A stretch of 64,000 nt of DNA from Hyphomicrobiaceae bacterium (GTDB lineage: Bacteria; Pseudomonadota; Alphaproteobacteria; Rhizobiales; Hyphomicrobiaceae). Shown here piece after piece: positions 30,426 through 39,024 of the stretch. Under the pieces are notes generated by a model. The model did not search any database. It was not told where the DNA came from and was given only the letters and a program-made list of their open reading frames with translations. Position 1 is the first letter of the stretch. The number at the start of each line of letters is the position of its first letter. The stretch is from NCBI GenBank assembly GCA_025359185.1, contig JANYHF010000059.1:1-64000 (forward strand), in the 5' to 3' direction. The position numbers and the translations under genes were made by a program.

Positions 30426-30803
30426 ATGAACCATAAATGGTGCAGCACGTCCATGTTCGGGCAAAGAGCGCCTCTTGTCTTCTATGCAAAGGCGGCCGGA
30501 AAAGAACCTGTGCGGGAATGGCTCAGGGGGCTTGATGAAGGCGATCGACAGGCTGTCGGCCAGGATCTCCAACGGCTCCAATGGCGTTGGCCGGTGGGAA
30601 TGCCGCTTTTCCGGAACCTCGGCGATAGCCTTTGGGAAGTTCGAAGCACGTTGCCGAGCGGCCGGATTGCACGAGTGATTTTCTATGTGTTTCGGGGTGT
30701 GCTGGTCGCGTTGCACGGTTTCATCAAGAAGAGCCAGAAAACGCCAAAGTCAGATTTGGAATTAGCCCGAAAACGGAAAAAGGAATTGGAGTATCGTGAA
30801 TAG
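30426..30803 (+). CDS. HigB/Gp49-type (RelE superfamily) toxin
   Basis: A 125-residue basic protein of the phage-derived Gp49-like family. FYAKAAGKEPVREWLRGLDE, LRLLPSGRIARVIFY-like wording (STLPSGRIARVIFYVFRGVL) and the KSQKTPKSDLELARKRKKE tail are diagnostic. Such toxins cut mRNA on the ribosome. The start could be the ATG at 30426 or at 30453 (116 residues); neither has a strong ribosome site. Toxin precedes antitoxin, as in HigBA, with an eight-base overlap. An ACCAT-AA-ATGGT palindrome at the start could be an operator. Confidence 0.85.
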   Translation: MNHKWCSTSMFGQRAPLVFYAKAAGKEPVREWLRGLDEGDRQAVGQDLQRLQWRWPVGMPLFRNLGDSLWEVRSTLPSGRIARVIFYVFRGVLVALHGFIKKSQKTPKSDLELARKRKKELEYRE

Positions 30804-31113
30804 AGCGAAAACCCAAGCAGATCATGGAATTCCCAAGCATCCCAATGTTGGTTCCACCCTCGACAGCTTCCTCGCAAAAGAGGGTGTGCTGGAGGAATTC
30901 CAGGCTGTCGCCATCAAGGAAGTGATCGCCTGGCAGATCGGGCAGGCGATGGCGGCAAAACAGCTCTCCAAGAACGCGATGGCCAAGCTGATGAACACCA
31001 GCCGCGCACAGCTCGACCGGCTGCTCGACCCGGCAGCGGGGAACGTGACGATCGAGACGCTGCAGCGCGCGGCGACCGTGCTGGGGCGGAAGGTTCGGGT
31101 GGAGCTGGCGTGA
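30796..31113 (+). CDS. XRE/HigA-type antitoxin
   Basis: A 105-residue protein. A helix-turn-helix at about residues 53-95 (GQAMAAKQLSKNAMAKLMNT then SRAQLDRLLDP) would bind the operon promoter and, with the N-terminal region, neutralise the toxin. The last part GNVTIETLQRAATVLGRKVRVEL is typical of antitoxins of this type. The start GTG/ATG region lies inside the toxin end. A small gene follows that may belong to the same transcript. Confidence 0.88.
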   Translation: MNRAKTQADHGIPKHPNVGSTLDSFLAKEGVLEEFQAVAIKEVIAWQIGQAMAAKQLSKNAMAKLMNTSRAQLDRLLDPAAGNVTIETLQRAATVLGRKVRVELA

Positions 31114-31522: not shown

Positions 31523-32473
31523 CTAAAACCCCACCTTATCCCCGCCCTTCAACCCCAATATCTCCCGCGCCTCATCCGGCGTCGCCACGCCTAACCCCAG
31601 CCCCTCGATAATCCCTCGCACCTTCGCCACCTGCTCCGCATTCGACTTCGCCAGCCTCCCCGGCCCGAGCCACAGCGAATCCTCCAGGCCGACGCGCACG
31701 TTCCCACCCATCGCCGCCGAAATCGCCGCAATTGGCATCTGCTGCCGGCCTGCACCCAGCACGCTCCACCGGTACTCGTCCCCGAACAGACGATCCGCCG
31801 TCCGCTTCATCATCATCACGTCTTCGGCGTGGCTGCCGATGCCGCCTAGGATGCCGAACACCGACTGGATGAAGAATGGCGGCTTGACCACGCCGCGGTC
31901 AGCAAAATGGCGCAACGTGTACAGATGGCCGATGTCGTAGCACTCGATCTCGAAGCGGGTGCCGTTGGCCGCGCAGGTCGTCAGAATGTATTCAATGTCC
32001 GCAAACGTGTTGCGGAACGGGCGCTCGCGGGTGCCGTCCAGATAGGGCTTTTCCCAGTCGTGCTTGAAGTTCTTGAAGCGCTCCAACATTGGATACAGCC
32101 CGAAATTCATCGTGCCCATGTTGAGCGAAGCTACCTCCGGCTTGAAGGTCGCGGCGGGAGCCACGCGCTGCTCGATGGTCATGGTGGCCGCGCCGCCAGT
32201 GGTGATGTTCACGACGCATCCAGAGCGCTGTTTGATCACCTTGAGGAACGGCGCGAAGGCTTCGGGTGTCTGGTCCGGGCGGCCGTCGGCGGGATTGCGC
32301 GCGTGCAGGTGGACGATGGCCGCGCCCGCCTCGGCCGCACCGATGGCCGCGTCGGCGATCTCCTCAGCGGTCACCGGCAGATGCGGCGACATCGAGGGCG
32401 TGTGGATCGAGCCGGTCACCGCGCAGGTGATGATGACTTTGCGGCCAGAAGTGGCGCGGGGGCTTGCGGCCAT
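31523..32473 (-). CDS. BKACE family enzyme (3-keto-5-aminohexanoate cleavage protein)
   Basis: A 316-residue zinc-dependent beta-keto acid cleavage enzyme. The zinc-binding IVHLHARNPADGRPDQ motif lies near residues 54-69, with VVNITTGGAATM and EVASLNMGTMNFG following. Family members condense a beta-keto acid with acetyl-CoA to give acetoacetate and a CoA ester; the keto acid here is unknown. It is transcribed in the same direction as trigger factor, 230 bases downstream of it, with hairpins between, so probably independently. Confidence 0.88.
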   Translation of the reverse strand: MAASPRATSGRKVIITCAVTGSIHTPSMSPHLPVTAEEIADAAIGAAEAGAAIVHLHARNPADGRPDQTPEAFAPFLKVIKQRSGCVVNITTGGAATMTIEQRVAPAATFKPEVASLNMGTMNFGLYPMLERFKNFKHDWEKPYLDGTRERPFRNTFADIEYILTTCAANGTRFEIECYDIGHLYTLRHFADRGVVKPPFFIQSVFGILGGIGSHAEDVMMMKRTADRLFGDEYRWSVLGAGRQQMPIAAISAAMGGNVRVGLEDSLWLGPGRLAKSNAEQVAKVRGIIEGLGLGVATPDEAREILGLKGGDKVGF

Positions 32474-32705: not shown

Positions 32706-34301
32706 CTAATCGTGCTTGTGGCCCTTGTGGTCGTGCTCACCAGGCCCACGGCTGTGATCGCGGTCGTGAGAATGATCGGTGCTGTACCCGTGGTCAGGCC
32801 CCTTGGTGTGGGCTTTATCGTGATCGTGGGAGTGATCTTGCCCTTGGTGGTCATGCGCGTGATCATGGCCATGATGGCTGTGATCATGCTCATTATGATC
32901 ATGGTCATGATCATGCCCGGCATAGTCATGCCCCGCACCGACATGCACGTGATCATCGTCTTCGTTCAGCCCCTTGAACAGTTCCTCGACCGTCATCGGC
33001 TTGTCGGTCAGATTCACCTGCTCCAGCATATGCGTGACCACCTTTTCCTCATAGATCGGCGCGCGGATGCTCAAGAGCTGCTGCGGGTTCTCGCGGAAGA
33101 ACTTGTAGACATGCTGCTCCTGGCCCGGGAAGCGCGAGGCCTGCTGTGACAGGGCGCGGGCCATCTCGTCCTCGGTGACCTTGATCGAATTCTTCTCGCC
33201 GATCTCTGACAACACCAGTCCCAACCGCACGCGGCGCTCGGCCAGCTTACGGTATTCAGCCTTCTCGCCTTCCTCGGTCTTGCCTTCGTCGGCGAAGGTC
33301 TTGCCGGCCTTCTTCAGGTCCGCGTTCAGCTTGTCCCAGATGCCGTTGAACTCACTGTCGACCAGCGTTGGCGGTAGCTCGAACGCGTGTTTTGCATCCA
33401 AAGCATCGAGCAGCGCCCGCTTCATGTGCTGGCGCGCGCCATCGGCATATTCCCGGGCCATGCGCTCCTTCAAGGCGTTGCGCAGGCTGGCCACGGACTC
33501 GAGGCCGAACTTCTTGGCGAACTCTTCGTTCACCTCAGGCGTCTCGGGTTCGGCGACTTCTTTCACGGTGACCTTGAAGTTGGCAGCTTTGCCAGCGAGA
33601 TTGGCCTGCCCGTATTCAGCCGGGAACGTCGCATCAACCACTTTGTGGTCGCCCGCCTTGGCACCGGTCAGCCCCTCTTCGAAGCCGGGAATGAACCCGC
33701 CCGCGCCGATCACGACCGGGGCGTCCTCGCCCTTGCCGCCGTCAAACGCGACGCCATCGATGGAGCCCACGAAATCGATGGTGACGCGGTCGCCCTTGCC
33801 GGCCACGCGGCCTTCGGCAGGCTTGAAGCTGATGGAGCTGCTGACCAGATTGGCCAGACTCTTGTCGATGTCGGCCTCAGCTACCTCGGCAACAGGCTTC
33901 TCAATGGAAATGCTCGCAAGGTCGGTCACGGCGATGGCGGGCACCACCTCGTAGGTCATACCGTAAGCAAGATCCATCTCGCCATTCAGCACCTTCTCGA
34001 TCTCGCCCTGGTCCTCGGTGAACTTGATGTCCGGCGTGAAGGCAGCGCGCTCCTTGCGGTCGTCCAGCGCCTTCTGCGTCGATTCTGTCACCGTCGTTTG
34101 TACCACTTCGGCCATCACCGAGCGGCCATACACGCGCTTCAGATGCGCCACAGGGACTTTGCCGGGGCGAAACCCCTTGATCGAGACCTGGCCCTTGATC
34201 TCGTCCAGCTTGGCCGAAAACCGGCTGTGCAAGTCGGCGAGGGGTATGGTGACTTTCAGCTCGCGCTTCAGGCCGCTGCTGCTGGTTTCGGTGACTTGCA
34301 T
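32706..34301 (-). CDS. tig: Trigger factor with long histidine-rich C-terminal tail
   Basis: A 531-residue ribosome-bound chaperone and prolyl isomerase. The N-terminal ribosome-binding domain carries the KGFRPGKVPVAHLKRVYG signature near residues 42-59; the FKBP-like domain is near 160-250 and the helical C-domain follows to about 443. The final 88 residues are extra: 27 are His, mostly HDHDH and HDHSH runs, predicted to bind metal such as Zn, Ni or Co. Normal trigger factors end near 430-450. AAGGGA precedes the ATG. clpP/clpX do not follow, unlike many genomes. Confidence 0.93.
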   Translation of the reverse strand: MQVTETSSSGLKRELKVTIPLADLHSRFSAKLDEIKGQVSIKGFRPGKVPVAHLKRVYGRSVMAEVVQTTVTESTQKALDDRKERAAFTPDIKFTEDQGEIEKVLNGEMDLAYGMTYEVVPAIAVTDLASISIEKPVAEVAEADIDKSLANLVSSSISFKPAEGRVAGKGDRVTIDFVGSIDGVAFDGGKGEDAPVVIGAGGFIPGFEEGLTGAKAGDHKVVDATFPAEYGQANLAGKAANFKVTVKEVAEPETPEVNEEFAKKFGLESVASLRNALKERMAREYADGARQHMKRALLDALDAKHAFELPPTLVDSEFNGIWDKLNADLKKAGKTFADEGKTEEGEKAEYRKLAERRVRLGLVLSEIGEKNSIKVTEDEMARALSQQASRFPGQEQHVYKFFRENPQQLLSIRAPIYEEKVVTHMLEQVNLTDKPMTVEELFKGLNEDDDHVHVGAGHDYAGHDHDHDHNEHDHSHHGHDHAHDHQGQDHSHDHDKAHTKGPDHGYSTDHSHDRDHSRGPGEHDHKGHKHD

Positions 34302-34351: not shown

Positions 34352-34435
<84 letters not shown>

Positions 34436-34654
34436 TAAAGGGTGATGCGGAGGTCTTAGCAAGAAGCGCGGGGGTGGGCAATCGCGATTGCGGACGGAGG
34501 GTGAAGAGCCTGAGGTCCCCGTCAACGCGTCCCGCGCAGCCCTAAGCCCTAAGTCTCAGCCGTTTGCAGCCTTCAGTCCCATAGGCTGGGCTATTGGTGA
34601 ACTCTACGGTTGCATCCGCGCAAATGCGTATGCATCAGACACTGGAGAGCGCTA

Positions 34655-36334
34655 ATGCCCCATTGGCGAACAAAGATGCTTTCACGGCGGGATGCCTTGA
34701 CCATCGGCCTCGCCGCATCCGGCTCGGCGTTGCTTGGCCTGAAGTCGCTGCACTCCAAGGGCCTCGCCCCCAGCCCCCTCACCACTCCCTTTGTCGAGCC
34801 GCTGCCCATCGCGGCCATCGCGCGGCCGGTTACGGCGTTTGCGACGCAGGCTGATCCAACGACGGTCAATGTCGATGGCAGCACGGCGTTCCATGTGCAT
34901 GGGCCGCGCAACGTGCCGGCAGGCGCGGAGTATTACTGGGTCGAGGAGCGCGAGGCGCTGCACTCATTCCACCCGCAGCTGCCGCCAAACCCGGTATGGG
35001 GCTATGACGGCACAGTGCCGGGGCCGACTTTTATCGCCAGAAGCGGAACGGCGTCGCTGGTGCGCTTCGTCAACTCTCTGCCGCTGGCCAATCCCCTCAA
35101 CATCGGCGCGCCGGTCACCGCCGTACACCGGCATAGCGGCTTCCAGGCGCCCGAGGACGACGGCTATCCGCTCGACACCTTTGCAACCGGTCAATCGCGC
35201 GATTTTCTGTACCCGAATGTTCCCGAGGAGGGGCTGCAACAGAACGAGCCCTCGACGCTTTGGTATCACGACCACGCGATCGATACGACGGCCGAGAATG
35301 TCTATCGCGGCCTCTCCGGCTTCTTCCTCAATTTCGATGCGCGCGACTCGCTGGCGGGCGAGGAGGACACCAGTCCGCTGGCGCTGAAACTGCCCGGCCG
35401 GATGCGAACGTCAGCCAGCGGCTTACCCATCCGCGAATACGACATCCCGATTGTGATCCAGGACCGGAAATTCGATCAGGCGGGGTTCCTTAGTTATGAT
35501 AGTTTCGATCACAATGGCTTCCTTGGCGATAAGTTTTTGGCCAATGGCAAGATCCAGCCGTTCCTGAAGGTGGACCGGCGCAAGTACCGCTTCCGCTTCC
35601 TCAACGGCTCGAACGCGCGCGTCTACGAACTGTTCCTTGGCAACAACAAGCCGTTCGATTTTGCCATTGGCACCGACGCGCTGTTGCTGCCCAATCCGGT
35701 GGCGAACTTGCCAAGTTTCCGTATCGCTTCAGCCGAGCGCGTCGAGGTCGTGATCGATTTCAGCAAATATGCGGCGGGCACTGAGATTATCCTGGAAAAC
35801 CGGTTGGAGCAGGTTGACGGCCGCAAACCGGGCAACCTTGTCCAGCCCGGAACGCCAATCGTGAAATTCATCGTCGGCTCCAACACGCCGCCGGACCCCA
35901 GCCGCGTGCCCGAAAGCTTGCGGCCGGTGTTCCTGGGGCCCGCCCAACTGGTGCCACTGGTGAAAGTGCGGCGCAAGTTCGAGCTCGTGCGCTCCGAGGG
36001 CGCCTGGCAGATCAACAATCTGTTCTTCGATGAAAACCGCATCGACGCCAGGCCGAAACTGGGCGACCCGGAAATCTGGACACTGAGTTCGGGTGGCGGC
36101 TGGGTGCATCCGATGCACATTCATCTGTCGGAATTTTTCATCCTGTCGCGCAACGGCAAGCCGCCGCCGGTGCTGGAGCGCGGCCGCAAAGATGTGTTCC
36201 GGGTCGGCGCCGGGGAGGGCAGCATCGACATCCTGGTCCGGTTTACGGGGTATACGGGGCGGTATGTGTTCCACTGCCACAACATCGAACATGAAGACAT
36301 GCGGATGATGGCTCAGTTCGAGGTGGGGCCATGA
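34655..36334 (+). CDS. Multicopper oxidase (CotA/bilirubin oxidase-like)
   Basis: A 559-residue exported oxidase. The N-terminus carries a twin-arginine motif (SRRDALTIGLAASGSALLGL). The four copper motifs are present: VHRHSGFQ near residue 157, WYHDHAID near 204, HPMHIHLSEF near 485 and HCHNIEHEDMRMM near 540, the last with the type 1 copper His-Cys-His and axial Met. Such enzymes couple oxidation of phenols, bilirubin or metal ions to water formation. The ATG at 34655 has GGAGAG upstream. Its stop overlaps the SCO gene start. Confidence 0.92.
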   Translation: MPHWRTKMLSRRDALTIGLAASGSALLGLKSLHSKGLAPSPLTTPFVEPLPIAAIARPVTAFATQADPTTVNVDGSTAFHVHGPRNVPAGAEYYWVEEREALHSFHPQLPPNPVWGYDGTVPGPTFIARSGTASLVRFVNSLPLANPLNIGAPVTAVHRHSGFQAPEDDGYPLDTFATGQSRDFLYPNVPEEGLQQNEPSTLWYHDHAIDTTAENVYRGLSGFFLNFDARDSLAGEEDTSPLALKLPGRMRTSASGLPIREYDIPIVIQDRKFDQAGFLSYDSFDHNGFLGDKFLANGKIQPFLKVDRRKYRFRFLNGSNARVYELFLGNNKPFDFAIGTDALLLPNPVANLPSFRIASAERVEVVIDFSKYAAGTEIILENRLEQVDGRKPGNLVQPGTPIVKFIVGSNTPPDPSRVPESLRPVFLGPAQLVPLVKVRRKFELVRSEGAWQINNLFFDENRIDARPKLGDPEIWTLSSGGGWVHPMHIHLSEFFILSRNGKPPPVLERGRKDVFRVGAGEGSIDILVRFTGYTGRYVFHCHNIEHEDMRMMAQFEVGP

Positions 36335-37038
36335 GGCGGGCGGGCCTTGCGATGTGCGCGGCCGTTTTGGGGCTTGCCGTTTTGATCGCCGCCAAGCCGC
36401 CTGATGATCTGCCAGCGCCCGTGACTGCGCCAGGTTCCTTACCCAGCCGCATCGACCTTATCCGTGAGCAGCATCTGCCCGATGTACCTCTGACTACGCA
36501 AGATGGCCGCGCCGTGCGATTCTACAGCGACCTCGTTAAAGGCCGCATCGTCGCCATCAATTTTATGTTCACCAGCTGCCGCGCCGCCTGCCCGCTTTCG
36601 ACCGCCAACATCCGGGACGTGCAGGAGGCGCTGCGTGTACGCCTGAAACAGCCGGTGGCGTTCCTGTCGATTTCGTTGAACCCGGAGATCGACACGTCTG
36701 CGGTGCTACACGCCTATGCAGAGGCGCATGGCGCTGGCCCCGGCTGGACCTTCCTCACTGGCCAGCGCGCCGACATTGAATTGCTGCGCCGCAGTCTCGG
36801 CGCCTATGACCTCGACCCCGAACTCGACAAAATCCCGACGCAGCACACCGGCCTGCTCATTATCGGCAACGAACCCACGGGCCGCTGGAAAGCGATCGCG
36901 GCTCTATCGCACCCCACGCGCCTGCGCCAGGCCATCGAGCGCGTGGTGCTGCCGGTGACGGAGTGGCAGACCGGCGCGGTTGCCGTAAACGCCGTGCCGT
37001 ACGCGGATAATGCGCAGGCGAGTATTCGGGGCCAGTAA
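36331..37038 (+). CDS. SCO1/SenC-family copper chaperone-like protein
   Basis: A 235-residue thioredoxin-fold protein with an N-terminal membrane anchor or signal at about residues 4-21. The copper-binding CxxxC (Cys83, Cys87 in FTSCRAACPLS) and partner His172 (PTQHTGLLIIGN) are all present. SCO proteins deliver copper to CuA of cytochrome oxidase or act as thiol reductants. Because it is translationally coupled to the multicopper oxidase (ATGA overlap), delivery of copper to that oxidase is a reasonable inference. Confidence 0.88.
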   Translation: MRRAGLAMCAAVLGLAVLIAAKPPDDLPAPVTAPGSLPSRIDLIREQHLPDVPLTTQDGRAVRFYSDLVKGRIVAINFMFTSCRAACPLSTANIRDVQEALRVRLKQPVAFLSISLNPEIDTSAVLHAYAEAHGAGPGWTFLTGQRADIELLRRSLGAYDLDPELDKIPTQHTGLLIIGNEPTGRWKAIAALSHPTRLRQAIERVVLPVTEWQTGAVAVNAVPYADNAQASIRGQ

Positions 37039-37147: not shown

Positions 37148-38902
37148 TCACGGATCGATCGTGCGGGCAATGCGGAAGCCCAGCACATTGTAGCGCCGGG
37201 CACCGCGATTGTAGTTGCGCAAATCGGTGCGCTGGAGCTGTGGGCCGTCGAGCCAGGAGCCGCCCCGGATGACGTTGAAATTGCAATCGCCCGAGGTGCG
37301 CGCGCTGCCATCGCCCGGATTGCCGGCGTTGGTGTCGTTCCAGCAATCGCTGGTCCAGGTCCAGACATTGCCGGCGACGTCATAGAGGCCGAACGGGTTG
37401 GGCTTGAAGCTGGCCACAGGGGCCGTGAAGACAAAGCCGTCTTTGCACGGCGCGCCGGACCAGGAGGGAAATTTTACCTCGCCCGTCCGGTCGGCGACGT
37501 TGGCATAGGTGCACAGGTCGCGGTCCTTATCGCCAAAGAAATAGCGCGGCTGCGGCGTGGCCTGGACTGCGCCACGGGCGGCGTATTCTGCTTCTGCTTC
37601 GCTCAATAGGCGGTAGGTTTTGCCTGTCTTGTCTGACAGCCATTTTGCGTAAGCCAGCGCTTCATCCACGTTCACGCAGACGACGGGATGCTGATTGTCC
37701 TGTGCGAACCCTGGGGCTTGCCAGGAGGCTGCGGCGTCAGTCTTCCAATCTTTGCCGTCAAAGACGTCGCAGCCGCCGTCGGACTTGAAACCGGTGGCTT
37801 CGGCGAAGGCCGCAAACTCCCCGCGTGTCACATGCGAGCGGCCAACGGCGAGGGCCTGCGGGATGCGGACCGTGATCTGAGTGGCCTCACTGTCGAAAAA
37901 CTCGGCGCTGGCGGCGTATTGCTTTTTGAGGAGGGCAATCTCCTGCGGGCTCGATCCCATCAGGGACACGCCCGCCGGCAGCACCACCATTTGCGGCCCG
38001 CTTTCGGCATCACGGAAGACACTGCCTGGCTTCAGGCAATCCTCGCTGCCAGCGACGTTCACGAGGATGGCGTTGCAGCTGCCGTTGGCAGCCTTGGATA
38101 CTGGGTCTGCCAGCGCGGTTTTTGCAGGGTCCTCTGGAGCCGCCACCACCGCCGCCGGGTTGAGATAAATCTCCTCCACCCCCAGCGTGCCGTACACGAA
38201 CGGCTCTTGCGAGTTCCCCGTCGCCTGCAACACGTCATCGCGCACGCGGCGGAATAGGAAGTTGATTTCGACGCCGGGCTCACCGAGCCGCTTGGCCAGC
38301 GCCGACGCGAACGGGCTGTTGTCGCCGTCGCCATCACCGGCCACCGTGTTTTCACGCGCCGCATAGGCTACCAGCTCGTTGGCCCCAGGTTCCACCTTCG
38401 CAAGCCCACGCGAAACGCCTCGCGTCCCGTCCTTGCCCAGCATCGGGAACGGATTGTTGCGGCAGGCATCGAGGATTACCAGCCGCAGCTTCGACGCGCC
38501 CGACGCCGCCTCGCGCACATCTTCAAGCGCGATGGCCTCGAAACGCACGTCACCCTTGCGCGCCAGCTTGGCATCGACCGGCACCAGGAAATTGGTACCA
38601 TCGAACTCAACGCCGTGCCCAGCATAGTAAACGAGTGCGATCTCGGCGGTTTGCGAGCGGCCGGAGAAGGTTTTCAGCGCATCGCGGAAGCCTTGGGCGG
38701 TGAGGTCGGTGGCAAGGTCGGTCTCGAAACCGAGGCTTTGCAGCGTCTTGGCAATGACGCTGGCGTCCTTGACGGGGTTCGGAAGCGCGCCAACGGCCTG
38801 GTAGCCGGAGTTGCCTATAACGAGCGCGATGCGCTTGGCGGCGGCAGCGGGCACAGGACAAAGTGACGACAAGACCACGACTGCCAGCCAGAAAAACCGC
38901 AT
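37148..38902 (-). CDS. Exported caspase-like (C14) protease fused to SUMF1/FGE domain
   Basis: A 584-residue protein. A signal peptide covers about residues 1-22 (FFWLAVVVLSSLCPVPAAAA). A caspase/metacaspase domain follows with the catalytic dyad His96 (YYAGHGVEF) and Cys147 (LVILDACRNNPF). From about residue 303 to the end there is a formylglycine-generating-enzyme-like (SUMF1) domain ending RGGSWLDGPQLQ and YNVLGFRIAR. The combination suggests a periplasmic or surface protease with a ligand-binding SUMF1 domain. The ATG at 38902 is preferred since it begins the signal peptide. Confidence 0.88.
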   Translation of the reverse strand: MRFFWLAVVVLSSLCPVPAAAAKRIALVIGNSGYQAVGALPNPVKDASVIAKTLQSLGFETDLATDLTAQGFRDALKTFSGRSQTAEIALVYYAGHGVEFDGTNFLVPVDAKLARKGDVRFEAIALEDVREAASGASKLRLVILDACRNNPFPMLGKDGTRGVSRGLAKVEPGANELVAYAARENTVAGDGDGDNSPFASALAKRLGEPGVEINFLFRRVRDDVLQATGNSQEPFVYGTLGVEEIYLNPAAVVAAPEDPAKTALADPVSKAANGSCNAILVNVAGSEDCLKPGSVFRDAESGPQMVVLPAGVSLMGSSPQEIALLKKQYAASAEFFDSEATQITVRIPQALAVGRSHVTRGEFAAFAEATGFKSDGGCDVFDGKDWKTDAAASWQAPGFAQDNQHPVVCVNVDEALAYAKWLSDKTGKTYRLLSEAEAEYAARGAVQATPQPRYFFGDKDRDLCTYANVADRTGEVKFPSWSGAPCKDGFVFTAPVASFKPNPFGLYDVAGNVWTWTSDCWNDTNAGNPGDGSARTSGDCNFNVIRGGSWLDGPQLQRTDLRNYNRGARRYNVLGFRIARTIDP

Positions 38903-39024
38903 AATTGTCCCGCCATCGCGAATTCTCGAACCATTGAACCCTAGCAAATGGCTTACCAGCGGGCAAACGGGTCCGGTCCGGGTGGTGAAGGGCCTGCTAT
39001 CACCTCATCGATCTGCTAATGGCG

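Follow-up and report, generated by a model that had tools for sequence, protein, structure and literature searches.

What is a long stretch of histidine and aspartate residues doing at the end of a trigger factor, and is it a real part of the protein? The question is raised by the tig gene of the window, by which we mean the whole stretch of 64,000 nucleotides analysed here. The features concerned are as follows.

32706..34301, minus strand: tig, trigger factor of 531 aa (open frame, profile matches)
32973..34301, minus strand: ordinary trigger factor core, residues 1-443, with an FKBP-type PPIase domain (Pfam, alignment, structure model)
32706..32972, minus strand: C-terminal tail of 88 residues plus stop, with 27 His and 19 Asp (composition, structure model)
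34352..34435, minus strand: tRNA-Leu just upstream of tig (tRNA scan)
31523..32473, minus strand: BKACE (beta-keto acid cleavage enzyme) gene downstream of tig, context outside the system (Pfam)

The trigger factor core and its tail

The tig gene at 32706-34301 is complete, with 531 codons plus a stop on the minus strand. Pfam analysis identified Trigger_N, FKBP_C and Trigger_C domains in its product, which matched the NCBIfam equivalog TIGR00115 for full-length trigger factors with 408 bits (cut-off 180) and scored above the curated cut-off for trigger factor membership (TIGR00115 / PF05697, PF05698). The ribosome-binding motif GFRPGKVP was intact at residues 43-50; it fits the GFRxGKxP pattern of the N domain and aligns to the E. 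coli trigger factor, and G43, F44, R45, G47 and K48 were invariant across 36 aligned trigger factors. AlphaFold2, run with an alignment of 36 sequences, modelled the core confidently (pTM 0.69), and a Foldseek search with the modelled protein ranked chains of E. coli trigger factor first. The latter (1w26) is the same three-domain protein, with 34% identity, a sequence match of 3.5e-64 and a fold match of 1.8e-33, although the TM-score was only 0.47-0.55 over the whole; it differs in ending with FNELMNQQA, without a tail. Judged by its sequence, the window protein is a genuine trigger factor.

This tig was the sole full-length trigger factor copy found in the genome. A second Trigger_N match, on contig C35, corresponded to the beginning of another trigger factor, which is truncated by the contig end. 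That end (G000:C35:45295-45456, L002), which also carries a tRNA-Gly, looks contaminating or chimeric.

The tRNA-Leu adjoins tig in 17 of the 19 relatives scanned, as it does in the window. Downstream of tig, a ClpP-like frame was found in 16 of 19 relatives checked; the window has the BKACE gene there, and clpP of this genome is located on another contig (G000:C88:47597-48166). Three further loci in the window were noted. Positions 34610-37038, divergent from tig, encode a multicopper oxidase with a twin-arginine-like start (judged by eye) together with a SCO1/SenC gene. Positions 30426-31113 encode a Gp49-like (DUF891) protein and, after it, an HTH protein, which together resemble a toxin-antitoxin pair, and positions 37148-38947 encode one protein with caspase-like and formylglycine-generating-enzyme-like (FGE-sulfatase) domains.

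The earlier note had described 27 histidines among the last 88 residues, in an Asp-rich context; a recount confirmed the 27 His and gave 19 Asp. The first 443 residues contain 7 His; at this rate, the binomial probability of at least 27 His in 88 residues is 3e-27. The richest other 88-aa stretch among the open frames of the window held 15 His and was the antisense of the tail; elsewhere the maximum was 14. The His-rich part begins near residue 451, where the last predicted helix (438-452) ends, and residues 450-531 were modelled with a pLDDT below 50. The tail, which contains no Cys, is thus disordered as modelled, and in the model it joins the folded C-terminal domain directly. By composition and model, it is a disordered C-terminal tail dense in His and acidic residues, as are the tails of the SlyD, HspA and GroEL1 kind.

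Microsatellite expansion was considered as the origin of the tail and rejected for the window, because the tail DNA contains only two short imperfect arrays (3.5 copies of a hexamer and 2.3 copies of a 15-mer) and its codons are mixed (12 CAT and 15 CAC for His; GAT and GAC are likewise both present). For the other tails described below it is unlikely: the longest perfect hexamer run was at most 24 bp in 44 of 46, and one of the two tails with a longer run owes it to a run of N.

Distribution of the tail among relatives and beyond

We classed an extension as a His tail when it held at least 4 His making up more than 10% of its residues, and as Lys-rich when it held at least 6 Lys; X positions, produced by a run of N in L004, were excluded before counting. 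Of the 99 genomes in the window's family, 94 gave a trigger factor match. Among the best 30 of these 94 loci, which were read, eight had a His-rich tail (six in genus g3, one in g15 and that of the window itself) and 22 did not. In the remaining 64 genomes no match extended beyond query residue 455, and at least five of these matches ended between residues 170 and 420 and are thus uninformative on the tail. The absence of the tail from 22 of the 30 members read indicates that its function is dispensable or replaceable.

Adding 84 further members of the order to the 30 family loci gave a set of 114 of the 385 trigger factors matched in the order: 37 with a His tail, nine with a His tail that also held at least 6 Lys, eight with a Lys-rich tail and 60 with neither. 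The total of 46 His-rich tails in 114 comes from a sample enriched for them and is not a prevalence, because the order members, like the 30 loci from the family and the 30 from SAR11 mentioned below, were the best-scoring among the matches listed, and score ranking favours tailed proteins. His tails occurred in 12 of the 31 order families read (the window's own and 11 others); their extensions were 15 to 98 residues long and contained 4 to 34 His. Across these members the composition of the tail recurs and its sequence does not. Some order members have His/Asp stretches followed by Lys/Ala stretches. In family f30, the tails (L034, L173, L178, L179) share a conserved HGPDC segment that places a Cys ahead of the HDHDH run; the window tail is Cys-free.

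Seven of the tailed trigger factors came from single-contig genomes (G204, G283, G323, G233, G151, G239 and G176), so a general assembly artefact was ruled out and rejected as an explanation. The earlier note had called for a survey of trigger factor C-termini in relatives, and would have given up its reading if close relatives proved tail-less and the tail an artefact. The survey turned out otherwise: His-rich tails recur in two other genera of the family and in 11 other families of the order. Its remark that normal trigger factors lack such a tail holds for the E. coli protein and fails for this order, where the tail is frequent.

A survey of the class gave a trigger factor match in 143 of 152 genomes, and of 107 proteins read outside the order, one was His-rich, 49 were Lys-rich and 57 were neither; this count omits L151, whose stop codon is not reached in the sequence read, and L149, a member of the order. 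The single His-rich protein, L139, had 23 His in 55 residues, and three further ones held 3 or 4 His. Many loci in L138-L166 and L240-L319 have Lys-rich tails at the same position, often rich in Lys and Ala (AAKKPAAKK type). The Lys-rich tails of other lineages indicate that this C-terminal end accepts many low-complexity additions.

We also surveyed the order of G571, chosen because the G571 trigger factor was the nearest to a Pelagibacteraceae one. A match was found in 52 of 58 genomes; among the best 30 of the 52 loci, 29 were readable and five had 4 to 10 His ahead of a conserved Lys-rich end, a count biased toward His tails because the query itself bears His. In these SAR11-like loci (L328-L357), short His runs come and go between close relatives, right before a conserved KKVSKK end. 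A scan of named genomes, biased in that the tail peptide was one of its six patterns, yielded 80 loci, of which nine were His-rich, 68 were below the threshold and three were unread. The nine comprised seven Pelagibacteraceae, one Caulobacteraceae MAG and one Clostridiales MAG; two Pelagibacteraceae below the threshold, L076 and L078, had 5 and 7 His, respectively, and loci titled as beta- or gammaproteobacteria had at most 1 His at that end.

Inheritance of the tail and use of its histidine codons

A quick maximum-likelihood tree was built from the cores of 123 trigger factors, 47 of them tailed, with the tail excluded. The tail state required at least 16 changes on this tree, and when it was shuffled 200 times at least 31 changes were required (mean 37.8). 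The value of 16 applies to that tree only, in which branches were supported by SH-aLRT alone, 36 of 120 inner branches were open and the outgroup did not form one side of a branch. The difference from the shuffled data indicated that the tail is inherited, yet easily gained or lost.

Tail His codons were compared in 17 hand-picked pairs from the same genus. Four pairs aligned gap-free (two of these share a row) and showed 7 silent and 0 replacing differences. Over all 17 pairs, 126 His codons were identical, 101 differed silently and 31 were replaced; the BLOSUM62 alignment used for this larger set favours His-His pairing, which makes the gap-free pairs the more reliable comparison. With equally likely single-base changes, 1/9 of the changes at His codons would be silent. 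The excess of silent changes therefore suggests selection for His, and at the level of sequence it points to a His composition maintained in the protein. Taken together, the tail is a real and recurrent trait that is apparently selected.

These data bear on the explanation that the tail is a hydrophilic charged bristle that helps with solubility, with spacing or through a pH-dependent charge, or else a low-complexity addition that is almost neutral, with metal irrelevant in either case. Its labile presence on the core tree, the tolerance of the same end for Lys-rich tails and the wide range of extension length (15 to 98 residues) would all suit such an addition. However, silent changes prevail at the His codons, and Asp or Glu alone would suffice for a bristle, whereas the alternation of His with Asp in many lineages suggests metal or pH chemistry. 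We regard this explanation as unlikely.

Candidate roles of the tail in metal handling

His-rich metal-binding tails are known on the chaperones SlyD, HspA and GroEL1. Among the titles and abstract starts listed by searches that named trigger factor, none concerned a His-rich tail on this protein; a survey of prokaryotic His-rich proteins (Cheng et al., 2013) may mention such proteins. SlyD is not known to carry Trigger_N and Trigger_C domains, and the window protein, with Trigger_N, FKBP_C and Trigger_C, does not have its architecture (insert-in-flap, no Trigger_N/C). Like the window protein, SlyD is described as an FKBP-domain chaperone of the cytosol that ends in a His-rich extension, which in SlyD binds divalent metals; in E. 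coli this extension has 13 His and 6 Cys and is reported to bind up to seven nickel ions (PMC7840056). Unlike the window protein, SlyD has an insert-in-flap domain and Cys in its tail (PMC7840056). HspA of Helicobacter pylori is likewise a general chaperone with a lineage-restricted C-terminal extension, described as His/Cys-rich and nickel-sequestering (PMC7840056), but it is a GroES homologue and not a trigger factor, and its extension has Cys. The mycobacterial chaperonin GroEL1 ends in a DHDHHHGHAH tail, and model peptides of this His-rich end are reported to bind Cu(II) (PMC10170517). It differs in being a paralogue that is said not to do ordinary folding (PMC10170517), whereas the window tig is the only full-length copy found.

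The earlier note had read the tail as a SlyD-like link between protein folding and the storage or delivery of zinc, nickel or cobalt. To examine the nickel part of this reading, the presence of nickel-related genes was compared in 80 genomes, comprising all 47 tailed and 33 untailed ones (35 other untailed genomes of the 115 were left out). The profiles were TIGR01792 (ureC), TIGR00073 (hypB) and PF03824 (NicO); G275 was scored urease-positive though its gene is split over two contigs and below the cut-off, and NicO in G254, below the cut-off, was scored absent. Tests that allow for relatedness comprised 7 independent pairs only. Over the 80 genomes no significant association with nickel enzymes or NicO was found, and the link was rejected. 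Urease alpha was present in 29/47 tailed and 17/33 untailed genomes (independent pairs, median p 0.69), HypB in 7/47 and 5/33 (median p 1), either of the two in 34/47 and 20/33 (Fisher 0.33), and NicO in 36/47 and 25/33 (Fisher 1.0; median p 1, leaning the other way). Urease or HypB did lean to the tailed rows, with 3.1 against 0.4 pairs on average (median p 0.375, lowest 0.03); with only 7 independent pairs, this leaves room for a weak nickel link. Thirteen of the 47 tailed genomes had neither urease nor HypB; eight of these were at least 90% complete and three (G204, G283 and G323) were single-contig genomes. A role in nickel delivery is therefore not required.

SlyD-like matches occurred in 8 of the 80 genomes, one marginal match being excluded. 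The raw counts, 2/47 tailed against 6/33 untailed (Fisher 0.06), suggested that the tail replaces SlyD, but the signal was gone once relatedness was allowed for (independent pairs, median p 1), and the tail as a SlyD replacement was rejected. The window's genome contains urease, and an E. coli SlyD query gave no match in it at E 0.001. Other proteins with an H[DEG]H[DEG]H[DEG] motif in this genome include a NicO transporter, a heavy-metal P-type ATPase and a Tad-like VWA protein; the last, on G000:C87 near 48986 (L234), contains a long run of DHDGYDHDGY-type repeats.

These results allow the view of the tailed trigger factor as a nickel metallochaperone, replacing SlyD in the hand-over of nickel for hydrogenase or urease maturation, to be weighed. 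It would fit the raw scarcity of SlyD-like matches in tailed genomes, the leaning of urease or HypB to tailed rows and the window's own genome, with urease and without a SlyD match; in family f31, moreover, a SlyD-like match was found in three untailed g134 members and in none of ten tailed ones (the fourth untailed member, G261, had none). Against it, SlyD, ureC, hypB, ureC or hypB, and NicO were all without significance at the median of the 7 independent pairs, urease, HypB and NicO occurred at the tailed and untailed frequencies given above, and the 13 tailed genomes without urease and HypB include the at least 90% complete and single-contig ones noted above. We consider this role quite unlikely. 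Of the earlier reading, the tail itself and its likeness to metal-binding tails stand, whereas nickel or cobalt delivery does not find backing in the distribution of ureC, HypB and NicO. By elimination, we consider nickel delivery less probable than a role with zinc, copper or in general buffering.

Published work on copper connects the core protein itself to metal stress. E. coli strains without trigger factor are reported to be highly copper-sensitive, with growth restored by ectopic tig, and copper is reported not to induce E. coli tig (PMC9040851, to which PMC13121390 led). A metal-holding tail makes sense in this light, and since the untailed E. coli protein is already copper-protective, such a tail would extend that role.

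The same copper work is compatible with a metal-sensing switch, in which metal bound to the tail would alter the oligomeric state, PPIase activity or ribosome affinity of trigger factor and so tune folding help to metal stress. Nickel is reported to lower the PPIase activity of SlyD (PMC7840056), the tail is attached directly to the folded C-terminal domain in the model, and the 6 or more Lys in 9 of 46 His tails could add nucleic-acid contacts. In H. pylori SlyD, however, nickel inhibition is described as independent of the C-terminal region (PMC7840056). A switch of this kind seems to us distinctly improbable.

The explanation that we favour, as on balance the probable one, is that the disordered tail equips a general chaperone with a buffer for divalent metals, analogous to the tails of SlyD, HspA and GroEL1; by this analogy the tail probably holds metal ions. 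The composition, the modelled disorder, the recurrence without shared sequence, the retention of His, the published chaperone tails, the copper sensitivity of E. coli without trigger factor and, in part, the metal-related proteins that bear an H[DEG]H[DEG]H[DEG] motif in the window's genome argue for it. Against it stand the absence of the tail from most family members read, the Lys-rich tails in the same place elsewhere, the lack of association with nickel enzymes or NicO, and the reports that E. coli trigger factor protects from copper without a tail and that copper does not induce its gene (PMC9040851).

We infer metal binding by the tail, the identity of the metal, buffering and coupling to the ribosome. 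A housekeeping trigger factor would have acquired a tail, disordered and rich in His and Asp, to which several divalent metal ions (zinc, copper, nickel or cobalt) would bind in a weak and reversible manner. Because trigger factor is plentiful in the cell and alternates between ribosome-bound and free states, the tail would form a cytosolic metal buffer where new proteins are most exposed. This buffer would shield them from mis-metallation and metal-induced aggregation, and the tail may store metal for later draw. Going further, trigger factor could be a ribosome-docked reservoir whose tail delivers zinc, or some other divalent metal, to the exit tunnel for transfer to emerging metalloproteins, evolution swapping the tail with Lys-rich ones that would tighten contacts with the ribosome or nucleic acid; we hold this to be very unlikely. 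If it were true, metal supply would be linked to translation.

Should the tails bind no metal, they would clearly exemplify a composition preserved for some different reason. Should metal binding occur in the cell, then throughout a large bacterial group a chaperone present in one copy, which encounters proteins while they are being made, would also serve as a metal buffer, and the repeated gain and loss of the tail would provide many natural pairs, with and without the tail, for asking how new metalloproteins get their metal.
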